Assembly: GCF_010093815.1 (NCBI RefSeq)
Contig: NW_022985560.1
Location: 245,501 to 309,500, forward strand
Direction of reading: 5' to 3'
Length of the DNA stretch: 64,000 bases
From: Pseudovirgaria hyperparasitica
Taxonomy: Eukaryota; Ascomycota; Dothideomycetes; Acrospermales; Acrospermaceae
The notes beneath the pieces are model-generated. The model worked only from the letters and a program-made list of their open reading frames with translations, was not told the origin of the DNA and made no database searches. The number at the start of each line of letters is the position of its first letter. Position 1 is the stretch's first letter. The translations under genes and the position numbers were made by a program. Of this stretch, positions 46,723 to 53,514 are shown one piece after another.

Positions 46723-47741
46723 CTTTCCACCTGCCCCCCACCGGACCTGACCAGCGCTCTCGATGCATGCAGCTAATGAATGCCCTGCCTTGCACAGCGA
46801 CGTTGGAGAGATGCAGACACGCGCGAATCCACCACCATCTTCCTTGGCTATACCTCGAATCTCATCTCGTCCGGGCTCCGGGAGACGCTGCGCTACCTGG
46901 TCCAGCACAAGCATGTCTCTGCCATTGTCACCACTGCCGGCGGCGTTGAAGAAGACTTTATCAAATGCCTGGCCCCGACCTACCTGGGCTCCTTTACCGC
47001 GCCGGGTGCTGCCCTTCGCGCCCAGGGGATGAACCGCATCGGCAACCTGTTTGTGCCCAACAGCAACTACTGCGCCTTTGAAGAGTGGGTGGTGCCGATC
47101 CTGGACCGGATGCTGGACGAGCAAGAGGCGGCACGACACGAGCCAGACCCGCTCGTCTGGACGCCCAGCAAGATCATCAGCCGGCTGGGCAGGGAGATCA
47201 ACGACGAGCGGTCCGTCTACTACTGGGCGTGGAAGAATGAGATTCCGGTCTTCTGCCCCGCCATCACGGACGGCAGCCTCGGCGACATGATGTTCTTCCA
47301 CACCTTCAAGTCGTCGCCCAACCAGCTCATCTGCGACAGCATTGGCGACATCAGGACGCTCAACACGCTCGCCATCAAGGCCAAGCGCGCCGGCATGATT
47401 GTGCTGGGAGGCGGGGTGGTGAAGCACCACATTGCCAACGCCTGCCTCTTCCGCAACGGCGCCGAGAGCGCCGTCTACATCAACACCGCCCAGGAGTTTG
47501 ACGGCAGCGACGCGGGTGCACGGCCCGACGAGGCGGTGAGCTGGGGCAAGATCAAGGCGGATGCGCAGAGCGTCAAGGTGCGTGCACACACTGCCCTCTT
47601 ATCGGCTGTTTTCGTGAGTATGCCAGTTTTGTGTGTGTGTGTGACTGACGGCAGCTTTTTATATAACAGGTGTATGCCGAGGCGACGGTGGTGTTTCCTC
47701 TGATTGTCGCAGCGACATTTGCCAAGGCGGCCACGGAGTGA
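46442..47741 (+). CDS. dys1: Deoxyhypusine synthase
   Basis: Three exons: 46442-46639, 46798-47577 and 47670-47741; 349 residues. The enzyme transfers the aminobutyl group of spermidine, using NAD, to one lysine of eIF5A, the first step of hypusine formation. Typical blocks are [84 protein letters not shown] and [19 protein letters not shown]. The catalytic Lys is Lys317 in [13 protein letters not shown]. The C-terminus [19 protein letters not shown] is in the last exon. Intron 1 (46640-46797) contains a (CA)n tract of about 69 bp close to its donor. GTAACA and GTGCGT are the donors. Confidence 0.96.
46652..46720 (+). repeat. (CA)n microsatellite in intron 1 of dys1
   Basis: About 34 uninterrupted CA dinucleotides starting 13 bp after the donor site. 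Confidence 0.97.
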
Positions 47742-49130
<1,389 letters not shown>

Positions 49131-51648
49131 ATGAGCGTTACCACCTCCCCGGCCACTCTTGATCCTCCACCGCTTCTCTTCCGCCAGCCTTCTCCTTCTC
49201 CATTCAACGCCGCTCCGCTCTCTCCAAACCCCTCCGCCCACTCCGCCGACTCCTCACACTCGCACTCGCACTCCGACTCACACTCCCTCTCCGCAGCAAA
49301 CATGGCTTCCTTGCCGCCGCCCCCCGACGATCACGACCACGATATCGACATGACAACCTCCACAACACTACCTCGCCAAGATGGTCAAAATCACGACAGG
49401 CAAGACGCTGACATGGCCGGTGCCGAGGACACGGCTGGCTCTCCTGTGCTGCCTGCAGACGACTCCACTAGCAGCGGTCATGCTGATTCTGACGACGAGT
49501 CGGAGGATACCATGCCCAACGAGGAGGAGGAGGAGGAGGAGGAGCAGGAGGACGAGGACGAGGAAGAGGAGGATGTCATGGACACCACTCCAGATCTCAC
49601 CCAGCTACACAACCTGCCCGCAGTCGTCGATGCTCATGCAGCCCACCATCCTCCTCCTCCTCCTCCTCCGACCATCAGTAGTATCGACGCTCAGACCCCA
49701 GCTTCCAATAATGTCCCTCCTGTTCGTGTCCCTTCCCCCCAACCACCACCCTCGGTCCCGCATCCTCCTCCCCCCGACGCTCATGTTGAGGATGTCGATG
49801 AGGCTGGAGACGACGACTTTTCCGACGAGGACCAGCTGCACTCCTGGCATCCCATACATGAAGACACCTCCGCCCCGGACGAGCGTGAATTACGCGATAT
49901 TGAGGCCCATCCGGAGCATTCGGCGCTTGAGCGTGAGTGCTTGCCCCCTTCTTTTTTTTTCCCAATCACTTTGCTGACTGTAGGATTGCCCCTCCATAGA
50001 TGAATACTGGGAGAAGAAGACGTTTACCGATCTCGATGATCCGGAATACATACCAGGTCCAACCGGCCGGATCGAATGGACTGTCCCCAAATACAATGGT
50101 TCCCGCGACTCGCCCAACAAAGAGCTGGTCATGCGCTCGCACGTCGTCCGCATCGGCGGCTACGATTGGCAAATCAAGTTCTATCCAAAGGGCAACGACA
50201 CCGATCATCTCAGCGTTTACATTGATTGCCTCACCGTCACCCACCGTGCCCCCGCCGCCGCCGCCGCCGCCGCCGCCAAGCAGCAGTCCAGAGATGGGTC
50301 GGCCAGCAAGCTCGACAGGCCGGCTGACGAGCTCGACAACACTGGCACCACCACCACGCTCGAGACTCAATTCACGCCCTTGCCCCTCTTGGACACACAG
50401 CCGCTGCCGAAGAGACCCAGTGTGGCGGCACAGGCCTCGGTCGTCGTCTACAATCCCAACGAGCCGCGCGTACACTGCTTCCGCTCGTGTGCTCACCGCT
50501 TCTGCCCCGACTCTGCCGACTGGGGCTGGACGCGATACCATCCCATCTACGAGATCCACCATCGTCTGCACGGCCAGCGCCAAGCCCTCCTCCGCAACGA
50601 CACCCTGTCCTTTACCGCCTACATCCGCATCGTCGACGACCACACCGGCTGCCTCTGGGAGCATGGCACCACAGACAACAGCTGGGACTCCTTTGCCATG
50701 ACCGGTCTGCAATCCCTGTACGTGCCACGTCAGACTCCGGGCGGGAACCTGGTCTCGGCCGTCTCGACATGGATCCTCCTGAAGCCGTTTAGAGACCTCA
50801 TCACCCGCCTGGTCGTCCCCGACCCGTCAAGCCCGATCCTCGACCACCCGAAGCCCTTCATCGTCGGCTTCCAGTATGTCCTCTACCGCATGCGCACCCA
50901 GGTCCAGCCCCGCATCGGGAAGATAAACATAGACTGGATCACGTGGGGCTTCCGCTTCTATGGCATCTACCATAAGCTGGAAAAGATGGATGTCATTGAG
51001 ATTTGGGAGGTGCTCCGCACGAAGATGGAGCAGGAACTGCGCGGCACCTGGGCCGAGAATGCGCTGACGGAGATATTTGGCGAGAGACGGCAGTATGCCG
51101 CGCCTGCGCCCGCGCCCACCTACAAGATTCCGGTAAAGGGGCTTCACAGCATACAGGAAGCCGTCGATGCGTCTGAAAACATGCTCTCCGACACCCAGGA
51201 GCTGCCCCAGGTACTGACCCTTGAGCTTGCCAGGCAGCAATTCGACGTGCCCACCCGCACCTGGAACAAGCTCACAAACGAGGTCACCTTGGACGAGTCG
51301 ATCGTGGTACGCGGAACGTCCTGGACCTTGTTTGGTCTTGTCGCCCATTCGGGTGACCCCCAGTCTGGCCTGTACAAGTCGGTCCTTCGTCCAAACGGCC
51401 CGGACGGGGGGAAATGGTACAGCTACCTGGACTCGCGCGAGGAGTACAAGGTCGTGTGTCTGACCAGAAGGCAAGCCCTCACCGCGCACGAGGGTTCACG
51501 CTCAAAGTCTCCGAATTCAACCGTGGCATATGCCGTCATCTATATCCGAAACGACATGACAGAGTCTGCCTTTTTCGCGCCCGAGATTGCGTGGAAAGCT
51601 CCCGCCTGGATGCCTCGCGAGTCCATGGTCGACTGCGGCGACATGGGT

Positions 51649-51679
<31 letters not shown>

Positions 51680-52190
51680 CGCCGCCACCGCCACTACCAC
51701 CACCAACACCGCCTGTCGGACAAGGAGGGGACGACTACTCCTCCTCTACTACTACTACTATCACCTCTCCCTCCCCCTCCTCTGTAGATGCTCCGTGCGC
51801 ACTCATGGCTGTCGATTCGCGTGTATTCTCACAACACGAGGGTCCCGGCTTCTTTGACCCCTACGATCCGAAATGGAGACCCGAATCCTCCGATCTGATC
51901 CACTCCATCCGCCTCAAGCCTTCCGACACCTGGAAGGTAATTGAATCGAAGCTGGCGTCCGTCTTTGGAGTACAGGACCCGCGGCAATGCAAGTTCTGGA
52001 TCATACGGGCGGGTTCGCGCGAAACCGAGCTGAGACCAAGTAGTACTGCCGCCATGCCCGATCACCTCGACGCGAGCGAGTCCTGGGTCCTGGGCAGATT
52101 GCTGGGCGATCCCATCAAGTACCAGTGGTGTATATGGGTCCACGTACTCAAACAGGAGGACCTCCCTCCACTGGCGCCGCCGCCGCCGTT

Positions 52191-52224
<34 letters not shown>

Positions 52225-53514
52225 ACAACACAAGGAACAGCAGCTTCCGCACAGATGGCTGCCGGAAATGCATTCAGCCGCGAGCGGACCATACCTCCGC
52301 CACCACTACCACCACCACCACCACAAGCACCACCACCACCTGCTGCAGGAGCTGCTGATGATGAGCTGATGGGAGACGACAGAGTCACGGTTGCGGAAGA
52401 CACGCCCATGCGTGAGCCCCTCCAGGACGGTCGAGAGAATAATGCCGCCGCCGTTGTTCCAGCTCCCGTGGCCGTGGAAATAATACATACCGGTAATGGT
52501 CAGACGGCAGAACTGATGGCTCCCGTCCGAGATGCGGACATGGCAGACGTCCTACTGGCCGTGGCCGTGCCTCCGTCACCCCCCCCTGCTGGGGCTATTC
52601 TCGGTAATGGCCCCCCCCGGGCGGATGATCCAATTGCTCCGACTGTCGTCCCGCACCCGCCCAACTCCGCCACGGAGGTCTACTTCTTCTTGAAGTTTTT
52701 TGATTATGAACACCAGCGTCTGGAGAGCCGCGGCTTCCATGCGGCGAGTAAATCTGCTCGTCTCGATACGGCCATCCTGAAGATTCTGGATCTGCCGCAC
52801 GATACCCCACTCAACATTGACGAGGAGGAAGACATTGTGACGGTAACGCCGCTGCGTGCCCGCCGCTCCTTTGAGCAGAACAAGGTCGATCGCCAGCGCA
52901 ACCGGCTTCCCATCCTCATCGCCTCACCCACCCTCACTGGCCCCCAGCGCATCGAGCTTGCCGCCCGCGGTGCCTTTTTCGACACACAAGCCCTGCTCCG
53001 TGCCCGGGCAAACGCGCGCAACTTTCCCGGCGTTGCCAACGGCCACTTTTCCTTTGCGCCCTTTGGCGGCGAGAGCTACGTTGGCGAGATCAAGCACCAC
53101 CACATGCACGGCCATGGCACGCGCGTCTACCACACCGGCAACTCGTATACCGGCGCCTTTGTGCTCAACCAGCGCCATGGCCACGGCGTCATGACCTTTC
53201 AGAACGGCGACACGTATACCGGCGAGTGGGCCGACGACCAGCAACACGGCCAGGGCACCTACATTGAAGCCAGCACAGGCAACACCTACGTCGGCGGCTG
53301 GCGGCACGACAAGAGGCACGGCGAGGGCGTCACGCACTGGAAGAGTGCGCAGGAGACGGAGAAGCTCTGTCGGATCTGCTGGGACGACGATGCCGAGGCG
53401 GCCTTTTACGACTGCGGGCACGTGGTGGCGTGTCTGCCGTGTGCCAGGCGGGTCGACGTGTGTCCCGTGTGTCGGAAGCGGGTGTTGAGCTGTATGAAGC
53501 TGTATTATGTCTAG
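49131..53514 (+). CDS. MATH / catalytically dead USP-like / MORN / RING protein
   Basis: Exon 1 is 49131-49932 and exon 2 starts at 50000. A second probable intron (51647-51787) is in frame; length is about 1,391 residues spliced, 1,438 unspliced. Residues 1-270 are Pro/Ser/acid-rich with an E/D run. A MATH domain (about 290-500) begins IEWTVPKYNGS and ends SFTAYIRIVDDHTGCLW...NSWDSFAMTGLQ. A USP7-like core follows: the Cys-box position (about 503-530) reads GGNLVSAVSTWILLKPFRDL with no Cys, and the His box reads HSGDPQSGLYKSVLRPNG (Leu for the catalytic His), then AYAVIYIRND. A HUBL-like stretch (DLIHSIRLKPSDTWKVIES) follows. MORN repeats (GESYVGEI, NSYTGAF, DTYTGEW, NTYVGGW) lie at about 53068-53340. 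A C-terminal RING has CRIC, YDCGHVVACLPC and CPVC. It is probably a ubiquitin-pathway adaptor or E3; relatives are annotated MATH-and-UCH-domain proteins. Confidence 0.8.
51645..51787 (+). other. Probable in-frame intron with (ACG)n repeat
   Basis: The span 51647-51787 starts GTACGA and ends TCTGTAG, is 141 bp and has no stop in the coding frame. Its translation would be a Thr run, then a Pro run, then Ser/Thr, unlike the conserved sequence on either side. Splicing gives DCGDM-DAPCALMAV. Confidence 0.55.
52184..52224 (+). repeat. (GTC)n encoding poly-Ser
   Basis: About 12 TCG/GTC units inside the MATH/RING gene encode a Ser run in a low-complexity linker. Confidence 0.9.

Follow-up and report, generated by a model that had tools for sequence, protein, structure and literature searches.

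A USP7/Ubp15 paralogue without catalytic residues that may act as a RING ubiquitin ligase in filamentous fungi

The deubiquitinase USP7 (HAUSP) and fungal Ubp15 have a MATH domain, a USP fold with a Cys-His-Asp triad, and UBL domains that end in UBL3-5 and an activating tail. P/A/ExxS targets require D164 and W165 in the TRAF/MATH pocket of human USP7 (excerpt of PMC6203733; the role of W165 is also supported by the excerpt of PMC4624675), and D762 and D764 are part of the UBL2 pocket (PMC6203733, same excerpt). Pseudo-deubiquitinases as a class have the deubiquitinase fold without its catalytic residues, and known examples are allosteric activators or scaffolds (PMC10919355, excerpt). In C-terminal dimeric RING E3s (XIAP/cIAP, MYLIP/IDOL, RNF4, and MDM2), a RING with an aromatic tail lies near the C terminus and other domains lie upstream. 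We know of no described pseudo-deubiquitinase with a RING on the same chain. In the open-access literature, no paper was found for the phrase “MATH and UCH domain” (a database name of Aspergillus and Talaromyces proteins), and none of the best matches had a title on a dead but conserved USP7 joined to a RING that seems active. The available portions of a fungal deubiquitinase review that counts one MATH-bearing UBP15 (PMC9599802), of a paper on Aspergillus UspA (PMC6627422), and of an evolutionary survey (PMC4327156) make no mention of a MATH-USP-RING or MORN protein.

We analysed a stretch of 64,000 nucleotides from Pseudovirgaria hyperparasitica (the window), and one of its genes is the subject here. 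The encoded protein shares the MATH domain, USP fold, UBL1-2 order, and Asp-Trp substrate pocket with USP7 and Ubp15, but it has no Cys-His-Asp triad, its fingers are shortened, its UBL2 acidic pocket is not kept, and past UBL2, where USP7 has UBL3-5 and its activating tail, the chain continues with MORN repeats and a RING. Unlike the pseudo-deubiquitinases that we know of, it also bears a RING with the E3 signatures that we tested, and unlike the C-terminal dimeric RING E3s, its upstream part is derived from a deubiquitinase, with MORN repeats before the RING. The Aspergillus and Talaromyces proteins belong to the same family and have the same layout, but they hold Ser-Lys-Asp at the former triad. 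From homology, predicted fold, triad loss, and the conservation of the pocket and the RING, we propose (with a probability of just under 0.6) that the window gene is a USP7/Ubp15 paralogue that lost catalysis and is now a single-chain RING ubiquitin ligase. Each part is known, and the sequences are public under enzyme or domain names; the new element is the reading.

Gene model and domain layout

We tested all GT-AG pairs of at least 40 bp within positions 49900-50010, and only one left the frame open. Removing this intron gives two exons and a single open frame (Table 1). The predicted product of 1438 amino acids matches, letter for letter, the public protein EJ05DRAFT_81011 (P0001 in our listing) of P. 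hyperparasitica, which the lineage look-up places in the Dothideomycetes and whose genome is 35 Mb. Everything from the MATH domain through the RING lies uninterrupted in exon 2.

Table 1. Features of the gene, in positions of the window.
Feature	Positions	Strand	Basis
Exon 1: acidic/Pro-rich N-terminus, residues 1-267 and first base of codon 268	49131..49932	+	spliced frame
Intron GTGAGT...CCATAG, 67 bp	49933..49999	+	sole frame-keeping GT-AG pair of at least 40 bp in 49900-50010
Exon 2 through stop codon, residues 268-1438	50000..53514	+	spliced frame
MATH (TRAF-like) domain with low-complexity insert	50047..50640	+	Pfam MATH_2; AF2 model
Asp-Trp, residues 441-442, counterpart of USP7 D164-W165 substrate pocket	50518..50523	+	DW in 207/211 listed proteins
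USP-like core without catalytic residues	50683..51654	+	
Former Cys box; residue 516 (Gly) at catalytic Cys position	50701..50772	+	alignments
Former His box; Leu725 at His position, Leu744 at first Asp, Asp745 at second Asp	51322..51441	+	alignments
First UBL past the core (UBL1-like, by position)	51796..52146	+	AF2 secondary structure; alignment to own canonical copy
Long disordered Pro-rich linker with short conserved D-x-x-M motifs	52195..52665	+	pLDDT mostly 25-45; invariant columns of alignment A1
UBL2-like domain of USP7	52660..53016	+	
MORN repeats, 4 Pfam stretches	53029..53343	+	
C-terminal C3HC4 RING, Arg linchpin R1426, aromatic tail Y1436	53368..53511	+	

An earlier note, made from the DNA letters, had described a MATH domain leading into a USP-like core, and Pfam agrees: MATH_2 (1.3e-11) and UCH (3.5e-7; 30.5 bits versus a cut-off of 23.9) were found above their cut-offs, as were MORN (1.4e-17, four stretches) and the C3HC4 RING (4.8e-10). 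USP7_ICP0_bdg was under its cut-off (23.6 versus 27). When we ran Pfam on four relatives (two Eurotiomycetes, a Lecanoromycete, and a Pleosporalean), MATH_2, UCH, MORN, and RING were above the cut-offs in all four and USP7_ICP0_bdg in one. NCBIfam assigned no family to any of the four proteins tested with it.

The note had also proposed structure prediction as a check on the core, and the model gives it the USP fold of peptidase family C19, not an unrelated fold. The order MATH-USP-UBL, together with sequence homology, places the protein in the USP7/Ubp15 lineage. According to Pfam and the model, the MORN repeats and RING come directly after the UBL2-like domain, and UBL3-5 and the C-terminal activating tail are absent. 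The RING was modelled poorly in the full-length prediction and well only in a prediction of the C-terminal piece. The 50 listed structural matches of the full-length model include no RING or MORN chain because the USP core occupied the list; the model of the C-terminal piece matched both.

Within the linker (52195-52665), the Asp and Met of D-x-x-M are invariant in a 101-sequence alignment (A1, columns D800, M803, D844, and M847). The pattern [ED]DT[PR]M is present in 112 of 179 proteins of at least 1050 amino acids, versus 2 of 179 after one shuffle, and is missing from most Eurotiomycetes.

Relatives, former active site, and binding surfaces

Elsewhere in the genome, there is one other candidate place for MATH_2 and one for USP7_ICP0_bdg, both at a single locus on another contig (C18). 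Its GATCYLNS, AGHYY, and FDDD stretches show that the genome also encodes a canonical USP7/Ubp15. The window protein matches the canonical copy with 119 bits (E 3e-31, 24% identity). The two MORN places detected in the genome are both inside the window gene.

To collect relatives, we used three homology searches, which listed the best 120 of 436, the best 120 of 329, and the best 120 of 163 matches; the third query was a 101-residue conserved block. All 211 proteins listed by these searches, shortened ones included, were aligned. The named matches that could be placed in the first two listings are all, we take it, Dothideomycetes, and the conserved-block query reached further classes. Among the matches listed, the full layout occurs in Dothideomycetes, Aspergillus, Talaromyces, Onygenales, Pyrenodesmia (Lecanoromycetes), and Pycnora (Candelariomycetes), where the lineages of five taxa were looked up and the other class assignments are our own assumption. 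None of the named matches listed is from Sordariomycetes or Leotiomycetes. We built a tree from 61 of the listed proteins, weakly rooted by a single distant outgroup (the canonical copy). In it, the Dothideomycetes (33) form one group and the Eurotiomycetes (24) form one group with a support of 100, and the four lichen-type sequences form no group apart from the Eurotiomycetes.

The earlier note had pointed to a stretch without Cys from about residue 503 to about 750, and this is borne out: Cys485 is followed by Cys754, with none between. The stretches that it quoted (HSGDPQSGLYKSVLRP, KWYSYLDSREEYKV, and AYAVIYIRND) are all in the window protein. In the alignment to the genome's own canonical copy, the catalytic Cys corresponds to Gly516, the His to Leu725, the first Asp to Leu744, and the second Asp to Asp745. 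Across the 211 listed proteins, the catalytic Cys position is never Cys (143 Gly, 54 Ser, 5 Asn, 4 Ala, and 5 others), His survives at its place in 2, and Asp is retained at the first Asp place in 28 and at the second in 179. A full Cys-His-Asp/Asn triad was found in none of the 211 aligned proteins, shortened sequences included, and neither was a Cys/His pair at the aligned place, which the note had named as a finding that would speak against its reading.

We considered whether the catalytic residues had moved or were kept in some lineage. Only 12 of the 211 proteins have a Cys at a distance of 8 residues or less from the former nucleophile, none nearer than 4, so we rejected a migrated Cys. 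In two Phyllosticta proteins (P0127 and P0128) and one from Aplosporella (P0131), the nearby Cys is in the loop preceding the helix and the His position is not His; this loop Cys may have a role. The only two of the 211 that retain the His are P0209 and P0211 of Blastomyces; as Ser replaces the Cys and Glu the first Asp in both, we rejected a retained active site there too.

The residues at the triad places differ by class among the 61 named proteins (of the 211 listed). They vary in the 33 Dothideomycetes, with Gly-Val-Ser the commonest (11 proteins), and they are Ser-Lys-Asp in 20 of the 24 Eurotiomycetes, Asn-Asp-Ser in the three Lecanoromycetes, and Ser-Ser-His in the one Candelariomycete. 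As there is no full triad and the residue sets differ by class, catalysis appears to have been lost either before the sampled classes split or more than once. Ser-Lys-Asp occurs in 27 of the 211 listed proteins, in the range P0169-P0208 and mainly in Aspergillus; it is perhaps drift, and a Ser/Lys activity may exist.

The MATH Asp-Trp is kept in 207 of the 211 listed proteins (the exceptions are P0166, P0174, and P0185, with DY, and P0190, with DR). In UBL2, with the place of human D764 read off the genome's own canonical copy, the acidic pocket is not kept: 156 of the 211 have Ser, Ala, or Thr at the second Asp place, and at the first position 111 have Asn and 56 have Asp. The substrates may therefore differ from those of USP7. 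The fingers, which grip ubiquitin in the canonical enzyme, comprise 42 residues in the window protein versus 74 in the canonical copy, 39-47 in the 33 named Dothideomycetes, 50-71 in the 24 named Eurotiomycetes, and 67, 74, and 74 in the three Lecanoromycetes. Because the fingers are about 30 residues shorter in the window protein and its Dothideomycete relatives, it is doubtful that this core binds ubiquitin. Because they are near full length in the Lecanoromycetes, the partial loss of the ubiquitin grip does not date from the start of the family and, judging by these lengths, is not family-wide. The window protein thus appears to have kept one substrate pocket, whereas catalysis and the second pocket are gone and the grip on ubiquitin is partly lost.

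Several of the listed entries are named as enzymes: ubiquitinyl hydrolase (P0044), ubiquitin carboxyl-terminal hydrolase (P0038 and P0050), ubiquitin thiolesterase (P0209), and probable ubiquitin carboxyl-terminal hydrolase 5 (P0194). Since the catalytic Cys is present in 0 of 211 proteins, these names are likely misannotations. Such names seem unreliable, and tallies of deubiquitinases in fungi would suffer from them; the window protein may even have the reverse of the activity that some of them imply.

The RING finger and the competing explanations

All eight C3HC4 ligands of the window RING are present (C1391, C1394, C1406, H1408, C1412, C1415, C1422, and C1425), in agreement with the complete RING described in the earlier note. 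The RING is complete in 120 of the 120 proteins of the first listing and in 178 of all 211 listed. In the other 33 it is incomplete or missing; 29 of these proteins have at most 1000 amino acids, many end at nearly one point, and they were probably cut at an intron, although some may be genuine forms without a RING. Among the 178 complete RINGs, the E2-contact residues are nearly invariant (Ile follows the first Cys in 175, and the Pro of CPxC is present in all 178), an Arg linchpin directly follows the last Cys in 176, Lys or Arg is at +9 from the last Cys in 173, an aromatic residue is at +11 in 176, and the chain extends 13 or 14 residues past the last Cys in 172.

Among solved structures, XIAP, cIAP2/cIAP1, and MYLIP are nearest in sequence. 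By the IAP spacing as we take it to be, Arg614 and Phe616 of cIAP1 are at +9 and +11 from the last Cys. In the cIAP1 dimer, these two residues of one subunit's tail pack against the donor ubiquitin of the other, and BIRC7, RNF4, and MDM2-MDMX use a Phe or Tyr in their tails likewise (PMC6349121, excerpt). The Arg linchpin stabilises the closed E2~ubiquitin, although XIAP itself has Tyr there (PMC12326332, excerpt). The window RING looks like that of an active dimeric C-terminal E3, as predicted from these residues.

Could the protein be an adaptor instead? In this rather unlikely case, the dead USP core binds ubiquitin or pairs with and regulates Ubp15, and the RING mainly controls the level of the protein itself or of its partner. 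Known pseudo-deubiquitinases do work as allosteric activators or scaffolds (PMC10919355, excerpt), the model shows an intact USP fold, 179 of 211 proteins retain the second Asp, and the fingers are near full length in three Lecanoromycete sequences; a core that only binds substrate would fail to explain the last two observations. Against an adaptor stand the shortened fingers of the window protein (and, by class, those of the Dothideomycetes and Eurotiomycetes) and the retention of the tested active-E3 features in the RING. RING domains without ligase activity exist, and the RING might serve for dimerisation or as a docking scaffold for an E2 in a protein that is not itself an E3. We regard this as improbable because the linchpin Arg and the aromatic residue of the tail, each present in 176 of the 178 complete RINGs, would be difficult to account for if E2~ubiquitin were not activated.

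It is very unlikely that other residues took over from the triad and that the protein is still a hydrolase. The Ser-Lys-Asp set, which covers most of the named Eurotiomycetes, would suit such a replacement, and USP53 and USP54, long called inactive, proved active (PMC12037411, excerpt). This caution weighs less here because the nucleophile itself is missing throughout. Also, the window protein has Gly, Leu, and Leu at these places, the residue sets vary both between and within the sampled classes, and the few nearby Cys are no closer than 4 residues. That the layout is an artefact, with two neighbouring genes joined or an error in the assembly or gene model, is hardly credible. Merged models do apparently occur at this locus, as nine relatives are fused to deoxyhypusine synthase. 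But MATH through RING is one exon here, and a complete RING is on the same chain in 178 of the 211 listed relatives, which come from several sources. We therefore rejected a gene fusion and consider this to be one gene, contrary to the two separate genes that the note had allowed for.

Proposed function and gene neighbourhood

If the window gene does encode a ligase, then the substrate would be held by the MATH domain, perhaps together with the USP-like core and the UBLs, and the MORN repeats would position the protein or bring two copies together. The C-terminal RING would form dimers, recruit E2~ubiquitin, and pass the ubiquitin on; the Arg linchpin of one RING and the aromatic tail of its partner would close the E2~ubiquitin. 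The loss of catalysis probably predates the divergence of the sampled Pezizomycotina classes. The earlier note had already suggested that the scaffold of a deubiquitinase was turned into the part of a ubiquitin ligase or adaptor that binds substrate. The conserved Asp-Trp (207 of 211) and the RING features support a ligase of this kind in part; the fingers, about 30 residues shorter in the window protein and its Dothideomycete relatives, and the UBL2 acidic pocket, which is not kept, qualify it.

If the substrates overlap with those of canonical Ubp15, then an eraser and a writer of ubiquitin would have come from one ancestor and would oppose each other. More specifically, one copy of a duplicated USP7/Ubp15 may have lost the triad, swapped the activating UBL tail for MORN-RING, kept the Asp-Trp, and come to ubiquitinate the substrates of the other copy, as a fixed writer/eraser pair in leotiomyceta (Dothideomycetes, Eurotiomycetes, Lecanoromycetes, and Candelariomycetes). 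We offer this extended scheme tentatively, as a possibility that is less probable than its failure. A dead USP with a same-chain RING that has the signatures of an active E3 suggests that a ubiquitin eraser can be rebuilt into a writer. Because the family spans four classes of filamentous fungi, including Aspergillus, in which gene deletion is routine, the idea is testable at once.

Deoxyhypusine synthase (PF01916, 8e-106) is encoded upstream on the same strand (46780-47700, +), and this neighbourhood seems to be conserved. In nine relatives (P0015, P0019, P0027, P0074, P0102, P0103, P0106, P0118, and P0146), the gene is modelled as fused to the synthase; where shown, the fusion joins near the synthase's last residues, and these are probably merged gene models. 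Between the synthase and the window gene, upstream of the latter, there is a long CTA-type microsatellite (48495-48595).
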